Positions 5,358 to 48,122 of a stretch of DNA of 64,000 nt are shown in pieces. Position 1 is the first letter of the stretch. Every line of letters begins with the position of its first letter. This DNA is from Candidatus Endomicrobiellum calonymphae (GTDB lineage: Bacteria > Elusimicrobiota > Endomicrobiia > Endomicrobiales > Endomicrobiaceae), in contig JAISYK010000006.1 of the NCBI GenBank assembly GCA_031269945.1, positions 62,001-126,000 on the forward strand, written 5' to 3'. The notes below the pieces were generated by a model. The model ran no database searches and was not told where the DNA came from. It saw only the letters and a list, made by a program, of their open reading frames with translations. The position numbers and the translations under genes are program-made.

Positions 5358-6689
5358 GCATTCTACAAAAATTATTTATACAAGTAAAAGTGGTTTTAAA
5401 AAAAATCGTTCGGTGGGATATATCTATTGTAGTACTGTATGGTTAATATAACTGTGTAATAAACGTTGATGTTAATGTAAATATAAAAAATAGAATTTTT
5501 GAAAAGATTGAACTGATTTGTAATAAATAGATAAGAATGATGCTACAAAATGTTAATTGTTGAAGATCGTTGTCGATGCTGCGATTGCAATAACAGTATT
5601 ACTACGTTTTTAAGCAAGAAAGGGGAAAAATAAAATTGTAGAAGTAACTCTTAAAAATTATATTTGTATCGTATGTGGATAAAAAAACAGAGTATGAAAA
5701 ACATAAAAGCTGTTGTCATAAATATAAAATTATGTGTCAAGTATGTGAAGTGTATGAAATATTTTTTTTCTATGGATAGAGAAAAACGCATGAATTCTCA
5801 TAAAATCCATTAAAGTGAGTAGCCCAAAGAGCTCCGCTAAAATATATAGTGATAGTAATTCAAATTTTAATGTTCTATTTACTAATCAGAATTGGTGTGA
5901 TAAAAATATTTTTAGTAAGAAGTTCCCAAAATCTACTGAATAGATGAATTGTTTAATAAAGTTTCTAGTCGATAATTTAAAACATTCCTGAGAATATTAT
6001 GATTGTAATTATCTTAGTTTTCTAGATTTAATTTTTACAACTGTAAGTTTAAATAAAAAATTAAATTATATTTGTGAATCTGTGTAAAAACGTGAACTAA
6101 TAAAAAGATATTGAATTCTATTGAGGTTACTTGTTTAAACCTAACTTTAAGTATAGATGGGGAAAATACGAAGAAATTAAAAAAGGCACCCGAGCTTCTG
6201 AAATTATTTTTATGGCTATGGAGTTTGACAAGGAGAAACGTGAGAAGTTTGTAAAAGAAAATGTAGGTTTTGTTATTAAAAATTTGGTCTTGAGTCAAAA
6301 TGCTTATTTGACGTTTCAATTGACAGTTAAAGTTGTCTTTTTATACAATGTGGAACCGCGAACATAGAAGTTTTAGTGATAGTGCTACTCGTAAGCGCGT
6401 AGTTTACTGGCGGTTGTTCTCTTGAATATTACTGGAATAAAGTTTTTGATGTTTTTAGTCCAATGAATACCATAAAAGCAGTGGTATGTATGGGGGTTGT
6501 GTTATTTGTATAAATTATAGCGCTGCGTGTTACTAGGAACTTGTTTGGAGTGTTTAAGTCTTACGATAAAAATTTCACTGATGTGTATGTGTAGCAAACT
6601 GGAGACTTTGTGTGTATTAAATATCTTATAGACGTTCTGTGATTTCTGTTTTGAAAGTTTTCCCAATTATTTAGTTTATAATTCTCCGA
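5358..6689. other. Decayed region; one unexplained 78-codon frame
   Basis: About 1.3 kb without a recognisable gene. The only sizeable plus-strand frame, 6131-6367, encodes 78 lysine/glutamate-rich residues including KYEEIKKG and FVIKNLVLSQN; it has no ribosome site or partner that would support it as a functional gene, and I could not assign it. It has the look of an in-frame fragment of a larger dead gene, since the flanking DNA is equally protein-like but full of stops. It lies upstream of the kdsB remnant and could have belonged to the same LPS operon. Confidence 0.5.
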
Positions 6690-7318
6690 AGTTCGACATT
6701 TTGAAGACAAGAATTCTGGCTGTAAATCAGCAAATTGTGAGAATGTACAGAGAGAAAGGGAACGTGGTGCTTGTTCAATCTGAAAATAAAATCGCAGGTA
6801 TTTTCACAATAATAAAGAAAAGTTTTTGATGTTATCTGTGTTTGGCCGTGAGATGACACTGTTGTTGTATCTGTAGTGGCTATGGCATTAACTGTGAAGG
6901 CAGATTTAATAAATTCTGCTGAAATTGTAAACTTTATGCCGGAGTAGTTATTGGCAAATTTGAAACTGCGGCAATATACAATAGATCAGCATGAGTTGAA
7001 AGAAGTGATAGTGGGTTTATATAAAAAGTGAAGAAGGCTGTAGTTACTCTATCAATGTATGAATCAAGTGGGTTTTTCGATAAGCCATTGATTTAAATAA
7101 GAAAAAAAATCTCTCACACAAGCATGTTGGAGTTTATGGATGTAAAAGAAAATTTTTATTAGACTTTTTAAAAAGTAGTGTGTTATTTTTAGAGAAAGTT
7201 GAAAATATTGAACAATTAAAAGTTTTAGAGAGTAAAAAAACAAAAGTTGTTACGGCAGAGTGTGAATCCAATAGGGGTTGATACATCTGGAGATGTTCTG
7301 TAGAGTTGATAAGTATCT
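6690..7318 (+). pseudogene. kdsB: Remnant of CMP-Kdo synthetase (3-deoxy-manno-octulosonate cytidylyltransferase)
   Basis: No continuous frame, but three-frame reading gives KdsB pieces in the correct order: a DVICVWPxDDTVVV segment (x = stop) in place of the VNVQGDEP motif near 6828; a GFFDKPLI segment in the place of YFSRxxIP near 7070; then a strong run from about 7102, with SHKHVGVYG (family kHiGiYaY), EKVENIEQLKVLES (family LEQLRaLE) and, after a frameshift, IGVDTSGDV (family giDTpeDL). KdsB activates Kdo with CTP for lipid A core assembly. The stops and shifts make it non-functional. It lies just upstream of a kdsA remnant and intact kdsC, an expected Kdo operon order. The identification of the 3' half is strong; the 5' boundary is uncertain. 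Confidence 0.8.
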
Positions 7319-7464
7319 GTTAGTTGCTTTGTGATTTTATATTGCGATGCAGCTTTAGTTGGGTTTTTGTGTGCTTGTTACTTTTATTACTTTTAGTGGG
7401 GGATCAGGTTAAAAGTGTGTAACGAATGGAGAAGAACTGAGAGAAATGAGTGTATTATTTTTTT

Positions 7465-8170
7465 TGAGTGATGTAAGGTCAGCCTTGTTATTATAGATGG
7501 ACAAAGTGCGTAATTGCGAACGAAAGATATGCTTTTTTAAGCTTAACTTTAAATTTGATGGGAGATAACATTGTGGAGTTTTGGAGTCTCTTCATTTTTA
7601 GAGATTTCTGCGGTAAAGCAAATTGTTTGTTGGATTGTTCTTGTAGTGAGGAAGGTGTTGAAAAAGGCTTGAAATTCTGACTAGAATCAAAAGAGCGTTA
7701 AGGTTAGGTGTTATTAGAGATGTTCATAATAGAGTCCAAGTTCCGAAAAGTTGTACGAGTCATGGATTTAGGTTCAAGTCCCCTGTGTTTTCACCGCGTC
7801 AAACGAATTTAATAAAGACGTGTGACTCTCTTCTCTACTGGTAACAGGAAAACATGTTAATATTAAAAGGTGGTGGTGGGTATTTTTTATACCATAATAA
7901 TCTCGCGGTAGATTTCAAAGAGGTAGAAATAGAGGAAAAAGTGAGCTATCATGTGTTGATCTTGATAAGTAAGGAGTTTGTCTTACCTATTTCATGAGCG
8001 ACTGCAGTGCTTGGATTTCTGTGCTGTCTATAGAAAAGTTCATGGCAATCCTAATGAAGTACTTTCAGAGGGAGCAAACGAACGGTGTTGACTTAAAATG
8101 TTTTAAGCAAATATTTAAATATATAATAGATAAGTTGGTGAGAGAATATAAAGAAGATATTATGCTGTGA
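7465..8170 (+). pseudogene. kdsA: Remnant of Kdo-8-phosphate synthase
   Basis: KdsA condenses PEP with arabinose 5-phosphate. Ordered family blocks survive in shifting frames: VIANERYA near 7510, CGKANCL for the family KANRTS near 7615, EEGVEKGLKF, RDVHNRVQVP for TDVHxxxQV near 7718, SPRQTNLIKT for CRQTDLI near 7790, ENMLILKGGGGYFLYHNN for the ERGTxFGYNNL block near 7850, LAVDF, and VHGNPNEVLSEGAN for EVHPxPxxALSDG near 8040. At least four frameshifts and several stops separate them, so no product is possible. With the kdsB remnant upstream and intact kdsC downstream this marks the loss of Kdo synthesis at this locus. Confidence 0.85.
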
Positions 8171-8279
8171 AAATTGCGTGATATGTTTGTGTTGTTTTGG
8201 TCAGCTGTGTTTTATTGGTAGAATCAAGGATATTGCTTATAAGCTTAATTACTAAATGCGGAGATGTGGTAAATGAATA

Positions 8280-8819
8280 ATGAAAATTGAAAGGTGTATT
8301 GTAGAAAAAGCTAGAGAGATTAGGCTTTTAGCTTGTGATGTAGATGGCGTTCTAACGCGTGGAGAAATAATAATTTTAAATAACGGCGAAGAAATAAAAG
8401 TGTGGAACGTTAAAGATGGAATGGGGTACAATGAGCTTTTTAAGGTCCATCCTAGGATTAAAACTGCGTGGATAACTGGTAGACAGTCTCTTCAAGTGGA
8501 AATGCGTGCGAAAAATATGGGTATAGATTATCTCGTGCAGGATTGTATGAGTAAAATGTCGGCATTGAAAAAAATATTAGAGAAAGATTGTTTTAATGTC
8601 TCCGAAGTGGCGTATATTGGTGATGATATAGTGGATATATCTATACTAAAAGCCGTAGGGTTATCGATATGTCCTATGGATGCATGTGGGGAAGTAAAAA
8701 AACATGTTGATCATGTTTCAGTTTTTAACGGAGGGGAAGGTGTTGTGAGAGAAGTGATAGAACTTATTATGAAGGCTAAAGGTGAATGGGGAAAAATTTT
8801 GAGTAGTTATGAACGATGA
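8280..8819 (+). CDS. kdsC: Kdo-8-phosphate phosphatase
   Basis: HAD-superfamily C0 phosphatase that removes the phosphate from Kdo 8-phosphate. The 179 residues match the usual KdsC length. HAD motif I is CDVDGVLT with Asp20 and Asp22; motif II is AWITGR; the YIGDDIVD motif carries the metal-binding aspartates. The ATG at 8280 follows weak ribosome-site-like bases GGAGATG. It is the first intact gene after the dead kdsB and kdsA and is followed by lptC-lptA-lptB. Because the enzyme making its normal substrate is dead here, it is either a recent leftover, has another substrate, or a second kdsA exists elsewhere. The residue pattern looks intact. Confidence 0.92.
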   Translation: MKIERCIVEKAREIRLLACDVDGVLTRGEIIILNNGEEIKVWNVKDGMGYNELFKVHPRIKTAWITGRQSLQVEMRAKNMGIDYLVQDCMSKMSALKKILEKDCFNVSEVAYIGDDIVDISILKAVGLSICPMDACGEVKKHVDHVSVFNGGEGVVREVIELIMKAKGEWGKILSSYER

Positions 8820-8893: not shown

Positions 8894-9412
8894 ATGTTTT
8901 ATAAAAGTTACATATTATTGTCGGTGATAATGTTCACTACTTTTTTGCTTCTAAGTTGTAAATCTAGAGGACTTATCATCGATGAAAGTTTGCCTAGTTA
9001 TGATCAGAAAGTGGAAAAATTTGTAGCAACCCGCGTCTACAAAGGGGAAATTAATATGATTGTTGAGGGAAGGTCTGCCATTGTAGATGCTAGAAATATT
9101 GTCGATTTAAGTCATCCTGTAATAAAACTTTACGATAAAGGCGATTGTGTTTTCAATCTAATCGCTGAAAATGTCAAAATAAATATGGAAACATGTGATG
9201 TTAAGTGTAGTGGCAAGTGTGTTATAAATGCTATAAATGGCGAAAACTTGCAAACTACAAATTTAATGTATAACGCCAAAAACAATTTGATTTACAGCAA
9301 TAATGATGTTAAGTTTACGAAACGTGGTGAGACAATATATGGCACAAGTTTTAAATCAGATACAAAGTTAAATAATATTGTTATTAAAAATCATAGAGTT
9401 ATAATTGATTAA
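8894..9412 (+). CDS. lptC: LPS export protein LptC
   Basis: Small envelope protein of the Lpt bridge that passes LPS from the LptB2FG transporter to LptA. The 172-residue product starts with a hydrophobic stretch ending in a lipobox-like LLLSC (Cys22), so it may be a lipoprotein instead of the single-membrane-anchor form of E. coli; the rest has the short beta-strand repeats of the LptC/OstA fold. The call depends on weak sequence similarity plus the gene order kdsC-lptC-lptA-lptB, which is typical. Its stop codon overlaps the next gene's start by 8 bases. Confidence 0.82.
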   Translation: MFYKSYILLSVIMFTTFLLLSCKSRGLIIDESLPSYDQKVEKFVATRVYKGEINMIVEGRSAIVDARNIVDLSHPVIKLYDKGDCVFNLIAENVKINMETCDVKCSGKCVINAINGENLQTTNLMYNAKNNLIYSNNDVKFTKRGETIYGTSFKSDTKLNNIVIKNHRVIID

Positions 9413-10115
9413 GCTAAGAAAAGTATTTTTTATTATTTTTTTTGTATGCGGGGCTATCATCTTTTATTTCGTCGGTTGTGCCCTAGGAAGAGTTGTTATA
9501 ATTGGAAAGAATATGGAAATAAAAGACGGAGGGAAAGTTACAATTTTGAAAGGTAATTCAAAGATTATCAGCGACTGGAATACAATAACAGCTGAAAATA
9601 TAATTTATGATAGGGGTAAATCCGTTATTTCGTCTCAAGGTGATGTTAGATTTTTGTTAAATTCGAAAAACAACGAAAGTGAAGCGATTGAGGGTTATGG
9701 AAATTTTATACGTTACAATGTGAATGAAAAAAATGGAAAAATTTGGGGAGATACTATATTAAAACTAAAATGTTTCATAAATGATTCAAGTTATCCCATT
9801 ATTTTGTGTGCTCAAGAAATCTATGTTGATGATAATCTGAAAATTTTGAAGGCTCATAGTAATGTTGAGGTTATGACTTCTTATGGCAAAATTTGTTCAG
9901 ATAATGCTGTTTTTTCTAGAAAAGAATCATATGCAGTTTTTGAAAAAGATAAGCAAAGGCCAGTAGCTAATGTTTTTCACGGTGGGATAAGAGGTATCTG
10001 TGAGGCGGATAGAATGGGTTTTTATAACTTATATGACGAAAAAAGAATAATTATGAACGGTTCGGTTGAAGTAAAAATTGAAATAAAAGAAAAAAAAAGT
10101 GATACTCAGAACTGA
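9405..10115 (+). CDS. lptA: OstA/LptA-like periplasmic LPS transport protein
   Basis: 236 residues with one N-terminal hydrophobic segment (about 5-28) and then the OstA-type beta-jellyroll repeats, visible as blocks such as KDGGKVTILKGNSKI, TAENIIYD and SQGDVRF. LptA forms the periplasmic filament that carries LPS to the outer membrane. The start is TTG at 9405, overlapping the end of lptC, and the 3' end overlaps the GTG of lptB by 17 bases, so translation is probably coupled across the three genes. It is longer than E. coli LptA (185), as is usual outside Proteobacteria. Confidence 0.82.
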   Translation: MIKLRKVFFIIFFVCGAIIFYFVGCALGRVVIIGKNMEIKDGGKVTILKGNSKIISDWNTITAENIIYDRGKSVISSQGDVRFLLNSKNNESEAIEGYGNFIRYNVNEKNGKIWGDTILKLKCFINDSSYPIILCAQEIYVDDNLKILKAHSNVEVMTSYGKICSDNAVFSRKESYAVFEKDKQRPVANVFHGGIRGICEADRMGFYNLYDEKRIIMNGSVEVKIEIKEKKSDTQN

Positions 10116-10818
10116 AAATTTATATAAAAAATATAAATATAGAATTGTCGTGAATGGCGTAAGTATAAGTGTGAAACAAGGTGAAATTGTGGGACTACTT
10201 GGTCCCAATGGTGCAGGGAAGACCACAGTTTTTTATATGACAATTGGTATTACAAAATCCTGTGGTGGTAGTGTTTATGTTGATGATACTGAAATAACTA
10301 CTTGGCCCATGTATCGTAGGGCTAGGATTGGTATAGGATATCTTTCGCAGGAGTCATCAATATTTAGCAAACTCACCGTTGAAGACAATCTTAATTCTGT
10401 AGCTCAAATAATTATAAACTCGAAAGCTCAAAGAAAAGAGAAAGTTGAAATTTTACTTGAAGATTTTAATCTTACAAAATTGCGTAAACAGTTAAGTGTC
10501 ACATTGTCCGGAGGAGAAAAAAGGAGACTCGAAATTGCCAGAGCTTTAGTAATGAGTCCTAAGTTTATGCTTTTAGATGAGCCATTTGTTGGTATTGATC
10601 CTATAACAGTTGATGGTATACAAGAGATTGTTAAAAAATTAAAATCAAAAGGATTAGGCATCCTTATAACAGATCATAACGTTAGAGAGACTCTTGAGAT
10701 TATAGACAGAGCATATGTGATTCATGAAGGTGAAATTTTACTTGAAGGAAATGCAAGAGAATTGCTTGAAAATTCAGAAGCTAAGAAAGTGTATTTAGGT
10801 GATGATTTTAAAATGTAA
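10099..10818 (+). CDS. lptB: LPS export ABC transporter ATPase
   Basis: Cytoplasmic ATPase of LptB2FG, which extracts LPS from the inner membrane. 239 residues with Walker A GPNGAGKT (35-42), Q-loop LSQESSIF, signature LSGGE (137-141), Walker B FMLLDEP ending at 163 and the switch His194 in TDHNV. LptB-specific features, DEPFVGIDPI and the LTVEDNL segment, are present. Start is GTG at 10099 inside the end of lptA. In many Gram-negative bacteria rpoN follows lptB; here an hpf remnant comes directly after, and no rpoN trace is visible in the roughly 130 bases between. Confidence 0.95.
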   Translation: MILRTENLYKKYKYRIVVNGVSISVKQGEIVGLLGPNGAGKTTVFYMTIGITKSCGGSVYVDDTEITTWPMYRRARIGIGYLSQESSIFSKLTVEDNLNSVAQIIINSKAQRKEKVEILLEDFNLTKLRKQLSVTLSGGEKRRLEIARALVMSPKFMLLDEPFVGIDPITVDGIQEIVKKLKSKGLGILITDHNVRETLEIIDRAYVIHEGEILLEGNARELLENSEAKKVYLGDDFKM

Positions 10819-10944: not shown

Positions 10945-11326
10945 ATATGTTATCAGAGCTGTGCATCTCTGGAATTGACCAATTCCATTGATTTTTGTCT
11001 ACGAGAAAAAATTTCAAAGATTGATAGGTTTTCGGTGATAATGATGATGTAGAGAGAAGTGCGTCATTTTGTCGATTGAAAAAATTTAGGCATATGATGA
11101 AAGTAATTTCGTTGTAAGCAAATTTTCTTTCGTGTTAAAAGAATATAGAGAATATTTTTATGGTTTGTATTCTTCAATAGTTCCGACTGTAGATAGACTG
11201 GGAAGACAATTCAAAAAACAAAAAGAAGTTTTGAAAGTTCACAATAAGAATAATTTAAAAGTTTTAAGGAAGCAGGACAGTGAGAAAGCTTATTATGATA
11301 TCGAAAATTCAAGAGAAAAAAATTAG
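10945..11326 (+). pseudogene. hpf: Remnant of ribosome hibernation promoting factor
   Basis: HPF dimerises or stalls idle ribosomes. The 5' part reads LCISGIDQFH, then a stop in place of the T/S-D, then in a second frame LREKISKIDRFS, matching the N-terminal beta-alpha unit of HPF (ISGrxxxxTdaLrexvekKisKldrff). After a stretch with stops, a clean 64-codon frame (11132-11326) carries EYREYFYGLYSSI and VDRLGRQFKKQKEVLK, the conserved C-terminal helix of the HPF domain (yxaIdxavdkLerQlkKyKekl). It is located between lptB and ptsN, the classical position of hpf. Frameshifts and stops rule out a full product. Confidence 0.75.
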
Positions 11327-11541
11327 ACAAGAGAAAAAAATTAGAAAATAAGGCGTTTTGATTTAAAACTAGAAATACTGAAAAGGAGCAATTAACGACA
11401 TGGATAACCTTGCTTGTAAAATTTATATGTTTAAGGATTAGCACATGCATGGACAAAACAAGCGTTCTTTGTTGCGATGAAAATAGATTGCTAGTTCTTT
11501 TAAGCTAAATTAAATGTAAAATACCGGAGGGGAAGAGAAAA

Positions 11542-45612: not shown

Positions 45613-46824
45613 ATATAAAACAGTGGATGTTATAATTTTGAGCGTTTAAGTTAAAAATTGGTTCAACCTATCTGAATTATCATTATGAGATTAAAATTTA
45701 AACTAAAGTTTACATACTTGTAAATTAATTTTTTGTTTTTACGAAAAAGGTTAGAATGTGAATAGAAAACAATAAAAGTATAATATGAAATTAAGATTAT
45801 TTGGTAAATTTTTTAATGATTCACATTAGTTTATTTGTGTTATCTTTTATTATATAAAAACTTTGAGAAGTAAAAGGCGAAAAATGAGCAAATATTTATG
45901 TTGAACAAACTTATATTTGTAATGTATTCATTTTCTTTAGTTTATTCTATATAAAGCTGATAGAACTTTCAAAGATCTAAAAAGACTTTTGAAATCTGTT
46001 ATGAATGTAGGTAATCCTCACATAAGTGGAACAGGTAAGACCTCAATTTGGGAGTGAGTTAATGCTTCAGATAGTGGTGATGAATTGTTTCTAATTGCTA
46101 GAAGCGTTCCTGAAACTGCGTAAATTGTTTGGACTCAAAAATAATAAGATATATGAATGGCTTTTTGAGGTTTGAAAGTGAAGTAAAGCTTGGTATTTAT
46201 GTTTTGGATAATAATTTTGACATTGGAGTATTCAAAAAGATTTGGACATTGTGTGTGCATAAATACGATGAGTTTTTTCGAAAAGGAGTGTGCTTATACT
46301 TGCTGGAATTTTAAAAGAAAATCAAAAGGCTTTAAAAAGAACTGGTATTTTGGTTATCCAAATTCTTAATTCTTAAATATGATTTTGTATGAACGACTAA
46401 AAAACAGAAAAGATCAGTTTTTATTTTATCAAGGTGAGAGTTTATTGTAAGATATTATGTGGCAATTTTAAATATAGAATTGTTGATTTAGATACGAATC
46501 TTGGTACTTGAACTTTTAAAGAAATCTAATGTGTATTCCTTAAGTGCAGTAGATTTTGTGAAAGGATTTAAGAATTTTATTAAAAAATCGAGAATAAGAA
46601 TAAAAGGTTATGTAATATACTGTACTGACTGATAGGTTATATTGACTATAATAATGTGATAAAAAATAATTAGTTGCAAAGAAAAAAAAACTTTTTTATC
46701 GTTATGGCAAAAGATGCGGTCAAGCTGGAAAAATTAATGATAGCTTAAAGTGAAAAAATCGTTGGGCCTCTTGTTATGGAACTACAGTTTATTATGGAAC
46801 TACAGTTTAAGATTGAAAAAAAAC
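45613..46824. other. Decayed region, possible sugar isomerase fragment and an 18-bp tandem repeat
   Basis: About 1.2 kb without an intact gene. Around 45960-46120 the plus strand reads RTFKDLKRLLKSVMNV, HISGTGKTSIWE and DELFLIARSVPETA, which faintly resembles a SIS-domain sugar isomerase (xGxGxSs ... DvxxxiSxSGeT), such as those of Kdo or heptose synthesis, with an internal deletion; this is weak. A 61-codon frame at 46129-46314 is unassigned. An exact 18-base tandem duplication (TTATGGAACTACAGTTTA twice) occupies 46774-46809, just before the gmhB remnant. Confidence 0.4.
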
Positions 46825-47320
46825 AATTGAAACAAAAAATGTTAAAAAGTTTGCGGTTTTTCTAGATGGAGATGTGACGATTATTTTTGATAAGAACTAT
46901 TTGAATTCTCCAAATAAAGCGAAATTTTATTCGTTTAATGTAAGAAATATAAATAAATTGCGAGAAGCAGGCTTTCAGGCAATAATCGTCACAAATTAAT
47001 CCGGTGTCAGCAAAAGTATGTTTACTGAAAAGATCTAATAAAAACAAATGAAAAACTTTTATCTCTGCTTAAAGGAGCTGAAGTAGATTTTTTTTTGTTT
47101 ATTGTCCGCACTCTAATTTTGATGATTGTTGTTGCAGAAAACAAAAACTGATTAAGGCATTCATTTATAAGAGGGGCAAGAAATTTTGATATAAATCTTG
47201 AAAAAATTTTATGTTGTTGTTGAGGTAGCGTAAAAGAGATTATTTATTTGGTTTCAATATGTAGGGAGAGGGGGAAAGTATACTAGTTCTTACTGGGCGT
47301 AGTAAACAGTAGGGTAGTAA
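46825..47320 (+). pseudogene. gmhB: Remnant of D,D-heptose 1,7-bisphosphate phosphatase
   Basis: Family blocks in order: VKKFAVFLDGDVTIIFDKNY (HAD motif I region, family kAvFLDRDGTInvdxxY), INKLREAGFQAIIVTN followed by a TAA in place of Gln and then SGVSKSMFTEK (family TNQSGIaRGxfTe), FDDCCCRK in another frame (zinc loop of GmhB), FDINLEK and, near 47250-47310, GESILVLTGRSKQ for the C-terminal VLTG block. Stops and frameshifts exclude function. GmhB makes ADP-heptose precursors for the LPS inner core, so this parallels the loss of kdsA and kdsB. Confidence 0.8.
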
Positions 47321-48122
47321 CACAAAGTAATAAATGAAAGAGAAAACACGTTTATTGTATGTAAAATCTTAAAATAAACTGTAAATTTTGTAATTGGGGA
47401 TGCCAAAAATCGCTAAAAACGCAAATTTGTATTTATGAAAAATATTTTTGAATAGGTATGTGATTAATTTAATGATTATTGTAAATATATACTCATACTT
47501 TTTAGCGTTTGTATAGAATAGTTTCAACTCTTCTTTAGAATTTTTAATTTGATTAAAAAAGAATACTAACTTAATAACTTACTGGTACTTTATTTTTATG
47601 TTAACTTATTCTTTGTTTCTAATCTGACAAACAGTAGAAGTGTGTTTTAAACTTTTCAAGAAAACAATATTTTTTGTGTTTCCTATTTTCTGTGCAGATG
47701 TAACGCACTTTTGGGAAACTTACGAGCTTTTTAGCACAATTCTTGTGGTGATAAGTCTTTAATACAAACAAATTTTAAAATTTTTCTTGTAAATTCATAT
47801 TTGGTACTGAAACTATAAAGCTGTACGCATCATCGTACGATATAAAATACTACAAATTTTTTAACCTCTGATTACTAATTTTCTATTTTGCCAAGTTGCT
47901 ATGTGTGTCACTTAGGTGATACAAGTTGTCTTGTTTCTAATTTGTAAAAAATGTGTTATATTCATTGTATGGAAAGTTAAGATGTGATTAGCTAAGAGTT
48001 GGAAAAATGAAAAAGGTGTTTGATTCAGGAAGAGGTTCCATTTTAAGTGATTTTTTATTGTTATTGTTTGCGGGTAAAGTTCGGAGTGGGTTGGGTGTAA
48101 AATATATACCAGGGGTGATACA
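47321..48122. other. AT-rich region before gpmA, nothing recognised
   Basis: About 800 bases with long A/T runs and no supported frame. A 119-codon minus-strand frame at 47912-48271 overlaps the start of gpmA, is serine- and phenylalanine-rich like an antisense shadow, and is not called. Confidence 0.4.

Follow-up and report, generated by a model that had tools for sequence, protein, structure and literature searches.

The bacterium from which the analyzed DNA comes, a Candidatus Endomicrobiellum (Elusimicrobiota; source genome, G000), lacks every LPS-synthesis gene tested, with its lipid A, Kdo and heptose genes all dead, while kdsC and the six genes of a complete Lpt bridge remain intact and under purifying selection. 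Lipid A synthesis has been lost three times in the genus, and we hold with moderate confidence that the bridge carries a non-LPS cargo and that KdsC serves another phosphorylated substrate. Endomicrobiellum is a genus of endosymbionts in termite-gut flagellates (PMC11257099). The G000 assembly (808 kb, 13 contigs) is 83% complete, and its KdsC is 81% identical to that of Ca. Endomicrobiellum mastotermitis and 79% identical to that of E. glyptotermitis. We analyzed it within a set of 42 Endomicrobiellum genomes, one per species. The window, the whole stretch of DNA analyzed, is 64,000 nucleotides long.

The gene order in relatives is hldD-hldE-kdsB-kdsA-kdsC-lptC-lptA-lptB, mostly followed by hpf, ptsN and hprK. 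We located remnants of these genes in the window by tblastn with proteins from six Endomicrobiellum relatives, and scored them by frameshift-aware alignment to the relatives' intact proteins, taking the maximum of 20 shuffles as the null. The kdsA (Kdo-8-P synthase) remnant, at 7507–8149 on the forward strand, matched in several frames (tblastn E = 2e-16) and scored 356 against a null maximum of 58, with 1 stop and 10 frameshifts over 201 aligned codons. The bulk of kdsB (CMP-Kdo synthetase) has been deleted; what is left, at 7028–7300 on the same strand (tblastn E = 7e-16, with 63% identity at 7117–7269), scored 213 against 47, with 1 stop and 3 frameshifts over 93 aligned codons. Both remnants lie in the order expected from relatives, and because their scores far exceed the shuffle maxima they are not chance matches. 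The earlier note on this DNA was thus right that kdsB and kdsA survive as remnants, but the stretch 6690–7028, which it had assigned to kdsB, belongs to hldE.

The decay is also wider than the two genes to which that note confined it. Upstream on the forward strand are remnants of hldE (heptose kinase; 6662–7028, tblastn E = 1e-9, score 205 against a null maximum of 54) and hldD (ADP-heptose epimerase; 5400–6651, the start being approximate, with a tblastn match at 6439–6651). The hldD remnant, aligned to the intact E. glyptotermitis protein, has 4 stops and 8 frameshifts and scored 159 against a null maximum of 86, about twice its shuffled control, whereas the other remnants at this locus score several-fold above theirs; it sits in the same order as the relatives' gene. 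Downstream, hpf (ribosome hibernation factor; 10957–11438, forward strand) is reduced to three pieces with stops (tblastn E = 5e-21), which marks general erosion outside the LPS pathway, and an lpxK-gmhB pair at 45892–47410 is broken as well. In several relatives, hpf was not found at this place. Between these wrecks, kdsC and lptC-lptA-lptB are full-length open frames, as had been proposed from the letters of the window. The kdsA and kdsB remnants together carry 15 lesions in 294 aligned codons, compared with no stops, frameshifts or gaps in the 180 codons of kdsC.

The claim that Kdo synthesis is lost had been made to depend beforehand on there being no intact kdsA or kdsB elsewhere. In the 83%-complete G000 assembly we found no second kdsA, the sole KdsA-family match being an AroG-type DAHP synthase, and no second kdsB, the sole KdsB-family match being IspD. 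With kdsA and kdsB wrecked and no other copy found, the evidence supports a loss of Kdo synthesis; KdsC would then not be acting on Kdo-8-P in a Kdo-making cell here, and would be left without its usual substrate.

A genome-wide search for waaA and the lpx genes, which the earlier note had recommended, yielded syntenic remnants and nothing intact. Profile searches for LpxC, LpxB, LpxK and WaaA gave no intact match in G000, while these families are intact in about 30 of the 42 genomes. Contig C4 has, flanked by intact bamA and matE, remnants of lpxD, lpxC, lpxA, two genes for sugar modification, lpxB and recG; on contig C12, between intact secF and a phosphofructokinase-like gene, lie remnants of waaA and three GT9 (heptosyltransferase) genes. 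In the window, the lpxK remnant (45892–46862, forward strand) is syntenic between mnmA and gpmA, with 15 stops in the tblastn match (E = 8e-30) and 4 stops and 11 frameshifts over 295 codons in the frameshift-aware alignment; PF02606 is intact in the lpxK of relatives. Directly 3' of it is a remnant of a gmhB-like heptose-bisphosphate phosphatase gene (46835–47410, forward strand; up to 16 stops by tblastn), named from context, the relative's copy being a HAD phosphatase (PF13242/PF08645). The lpxD remnant stands out only weakly from its shuffles (90 against 52; tblastn E = 5e-5), and a candidate lpxI remnant, scoring 72 against a null maximum of 78, was not significant and is not claimed. The recG remnant (L152:12462–14645) has 12 stops and 30 frameshifts, and the gene is intact in the closest relatives. 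Since the LPS-gene remnants occupy their syntenic places between intact neighbors, they are not assembly gaps. None of lpxA, lpxC, lpxD, lpxB, lpxK and waaA, the set expected of an LPS-producing diderm, has an intact copy in G000. Lipid A, Kdo and heptose genes were lost together, so what had been framed as a Kdo problem is one of the whole pathway, and the proposal that the bridge carries Kdo-free lipid A is excluded by the wrecked lpxA, lpxB, lpxC, lpxD and lpxK.

Relatives carry LpxC as a fusion with FabZ. Of this fusion, G000 has kept the FabZ half as an open frame of 173 aa (75% identity), and its LpxC half is wrecked. The same reduction of LpxC-FabZ to FabZ alone has occurred in four genomes, G000, G041, G023 and G031 (FabZ-only remainders at L152:7303–7824, L108:10357–10848, L109:7715–8212 and L154:8660–9139). 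The split separates the two functions, with fatty-acid synthesis retained and lipid A abandoned.

We built a tree from LptF, LptG, LptB and PtsN, in which G000 groups with the intact G003, G008 and G011, G041 is sister to the intact G020, and G023 stands apart. These positions imply separate losses of lipid A synthesis in the G000, G041 and G023 lineages. The lpx cluster is also missing from G031, a 60%-complete genome that was not placed on the tree. All three LPS-less lineages retain LptB, LptF, LptG, LptC, LptA and LptD; kdsC is retained in two of them (G000 and G041) and is gone from G023.

Five components of the bridge in G000, LptB, LptF, LptG, LptC and LptA, were recognized as present and intact. 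In the window, all on the forward strand, are lptC (8894–9412; TIGR04409 over cut-off), lptA (9405–10115) and lptB (10099–10818; TIGR04406 at 349.7 bits, over cut-off). LptA matches TIGR03002 (E = 1e-5) and PF03968 below both curated cut-offs; its gene is full length and syntenic, with 64% identity to a relative. The sixth component, LptD, had been stated to be absent from all Endomicrobiaceae (PMC11257099), and the Pfam LptD profile alone gave five borderline matches. A profile made from four of the borderline sequences, however, found LptD in 36 of the 42 genomes, including G000, G023 and G041. In G000 the gene is intact and divergent (contig C4, 46775–48859; L265:1438–3630), and its product has a jellyroll domain and a large beta-barrel. 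The identification rests on the PF03968+PF04453 architecture in relatives, on profile matches to 12 LptD structures (best E = 1e-12), and on a Foldseek search with a model of mean pLDDT only 63, in which the 37 best matches were all LptD (TM ~0.5–0.57 for the best). The published absence of LptD from Endomicrobiaceae is thereby corrected. G041 has two LptD-like genes a few kilobases apart (C1:577229–579307 and 582790–584895). LptE was not found in Borrelia (PMC10353723). At conserved residues, the Lpt proteins of LPS-less lineages are as well preserved as their counterparts in LPS-makers; the only convergent changes that we found among them were an LptG tryptophan (G041 and G023) and a V-to-I change in LptB.

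We measured constraint with a codon model that gave the G000 branch its own dN/dS, and tested ω = 1 for each gene. For kdsC, dN/dS was 0.078 on the G000 branch and 0.139 in the background, and ω = 1 was rejected (2ΔlnL = 44.9). The G000-branch values were 0.15–0.17 for lptB, 0.22–0.24 for lptC, 0.29–0.33 for lptA, 0.33–0.35 for lptD, 0.17–0.19 for lptF and 0.09–0.12 for lptG, each rejecting ω = 1 and each, like that of kdsC, an average that spans pre-loss time. The fraction of the branch that follows the loss is known only roughly, because dS of the remnants is saturated and their dN/dS is pulled down by an aligner that chooses frames so as to keep similarity; with G000 branch lengths of up to 20, the remnant dN/dS values that we computed were not used for neutrality, and lesion counts were used instead. 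Neutral evolution over the time span of the remnants predicts ~9.5 disabling lesions in kdsC, which has none (P ~1e-4); for the six Lpt genes together the same purpose-written aligner gave 112 expected and none seen. Constraint on the Lpt genes in G000 is approximately that in LPS-making sisters, with lptB slightly raised in a nine-taxon test and borderline relaxed.

These numbers bear on whether kdsC and the Lpt genes no longer have a function and have simply not been broken yet, a reading we consider unlikely. Genome erosion is general in Endomicrobiellum (PMC11257099), G023 has already lost kdsC, and on the G041 branch dN/dS after LPS loss is relaxed for lptG (1.06), lptF (0.55) and lptB (0.36), with the lptG and lptF frames still open. 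The lptG/lptF pattern reflects either relaxation or adaptation after LPS loss, and the relaxed genes are compatible with slow loss; values for lptA (0.22) and kdsC (0.20) on that branch are indistinguishable from background, and the kdsA remnant of G041 is less decayed than that of G000. Against this reading, ω = 1 is rejected for every Lpt gene of G000, of which only lptB is even borderline relaxed, the expected lesions are missing, and the bridge is intact in all three LPS-less lineages. A bridge on its way out, as the earlier note had allowed, is therefore disfavored in G000 and possible in G041.

If the bridge is kept for use, it would still be working as an ATP-driven conveyor of lipid from the inner to the outer membrane, taking up an amphiphile at the inner membrane and handing it on along LptC-LptA-LptD. 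Spirochetes and Thermotoga are known to have Lpt but no LPS (PMC10353723). What the bridge carries in LPS-lacking diderms is contested: glycolipids have been put forward (PMC10353723), and so have surface lipoproteins, the latter for Borrelia by He et al., as summarized in PMC13317210. A glycolipid other than LPS, the cargo suggested for Borrelia, Treponema, Thermus and Thermotoga, would suit the observations that LPS-lacking diderms with Lpt orthologues have glycolipids of their own (PMC10353723) and that PF03739 is present in our Thermotoga, Thermus and Deinobacterium controls. However, no match to GT4 (PF00534, the glycosyltransferase family covered) passed the cut-off in G000 or in seven relatives, which weakens a glycolipid cargo, and the GT9 genes of G000 are dead. 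The suggestion that the bridge carries another glycolipid thus holds as to another cargo, while a GT4-made glycolipid is not obvious, and we regard a glycolipid as a doubtful candidate. Near lptFG lie FtsX/MacB-type and ABC genes that are LolCE- and LolD-like by generic domains and position; because of these genes and because no GT4 glycosyltransferase was found, surface lipoproteins or another amphiphile would be the leading candidates, with a glycolipid (PMC10353723) or a phospholipid as further ones.

The kdsC gene (8280–8819, forward strand) encodes a 179-aa HAD phosphatase with family-conserved motifs. It scored 150.9 bits against TIGR01670, over the cut-off of 106.95, and missed the narrower NF007019 equivalog (157 against 208). 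The protein aligns to E. coli KdsC (2r8e) and keeps the DxD (CDVDGVLTRG), TGR (WITGR), K (at MSK) and GDD (GDDIVD) motifs and the C-terminal GGxGxVRE tail (as NGGEGVVRE). Since all near-invariant positions are retained bar one, a K-to-R change, its chemistry is probably unchanged, and the most obvious candidate for its substrate would be a sugar phosphate. In G007 and G017, kdsC, with ~94% identity to a close relative, has a single frameshift, either a sequencing error or a first step of loss.

Across the genus, KdsC and Kdo synthesis come apart in both directions. In G000 and G041, kdsC persists without working kdsA and kdsB. Conversely, in five genomes kdsA is intact but there is no functional kdsC, which was undetectable in G012, G021 and G029 and is wrecked in G027 and G030 (14 and 17 lesions); kdsB is intact in four of the five and was not found in G021. 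Moreover, lptCAB is intact without kdsC in G023, G012 and G021, and in G012 only 23 bases separate kdsA from lptC. From the five kdsA-bearing genomes and from G023, we conclude that Kdo synthesis and lpt expression can each do without kdsC. In Kdo synthesis, another phosphatase presumably stands in for KdsC, and whether KdsC is conserved is not tied to whether Kdo is made.

Retention of kdsC only as the first gene of a kdsC-lptC-lptA-lptB operon, its translation protecting the lpt message, is in our view quite improbable. The kdsC-lptC gap is only 74 bases, and around kdsC we counted 8 promoter-like matches against 4.3 expected by chance with no clear lpt promoter, so that lpt may need read-through; but a dN/dS of 0.08 denotes selection on the protein rather than on an open frame, and the three genomes with lptCAB and no kdsC argue against it. 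KdsC would instead be kept for another small phosphorylated substrate. That the LPS genes lie in unassembled DNA, or that the wrecks are sequencing errors, is very improbable despite the incomplete assembly, since the wrecks are syntenic at a number of distinct loci and carry dozens of lesions next to clean neighbors, the genes are single copies in relatives, and G008, with a full lpx set, is reported at the same completeness, so that the 83% figure partly reflects genome reduction.

With the synthesis genes dead, KdsC and the Lpt bridge intact under selection, and kdsC dissociated from Kdo across lineages, KdsC and the bridge both probably have non-LPS jobs. Conceivably, though we put this forward tentatively, the bridge of Endomicrobiellum has an essential second, non-LPS cargo (surface lipoproteins, for example) that LPS-making ancestors already had, KdsC has a second substrate, and the parallel losses unmask both.

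The closest known case is Ca. Endomicrobium trichonymphae Rs-D17, which belongs to this genus and also lives in flagellates; its LPS biosynthesis is described in PMC4505116, with reference to the 2008 genome, as interrupted by pseudogenes. The G000 lineage, by contrast, lost the pathway separately. In a search that left aside the 2008 and 2016 genome papers, we found no report of kdsC and a complete Lpt bridge with LptD persisting in Rs-D17, and our literature search found nothing relevant on kdsC retained beside kdsA and kdsB pseudogenes. An Lpt bridge without LPS is shared with Borrelia burgdorferi, Treponema pallidum, Thermotoga and Thermus; those, however, are entire groups without LPS, whereas in Endomicrobiellum the loss is recent and repeated and LPS-makers remain. 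Outer membrane synthesis genes are often lost in intracellular life (PMC11257099), but LPS loss in other endosymbionts comes with erosion of the envelope, whereas in G000 the export machine is under selection after its loss of synthesis. As far as we have checked, the parallel recent losses with a complete bridge under selection, the recognition of LptD, the dissociation of kdsC from Kdo and the repeated reduction of LpxC-FabZ to FabZ are new.

The cargo of Lpt in LPS-less bacteria is disputed, and it was earlier studied in groups wholly without LPS. With LPS-makers and LPS-losers in one genus, and at least three independent losses, a before-and-after comparison becomes possible.
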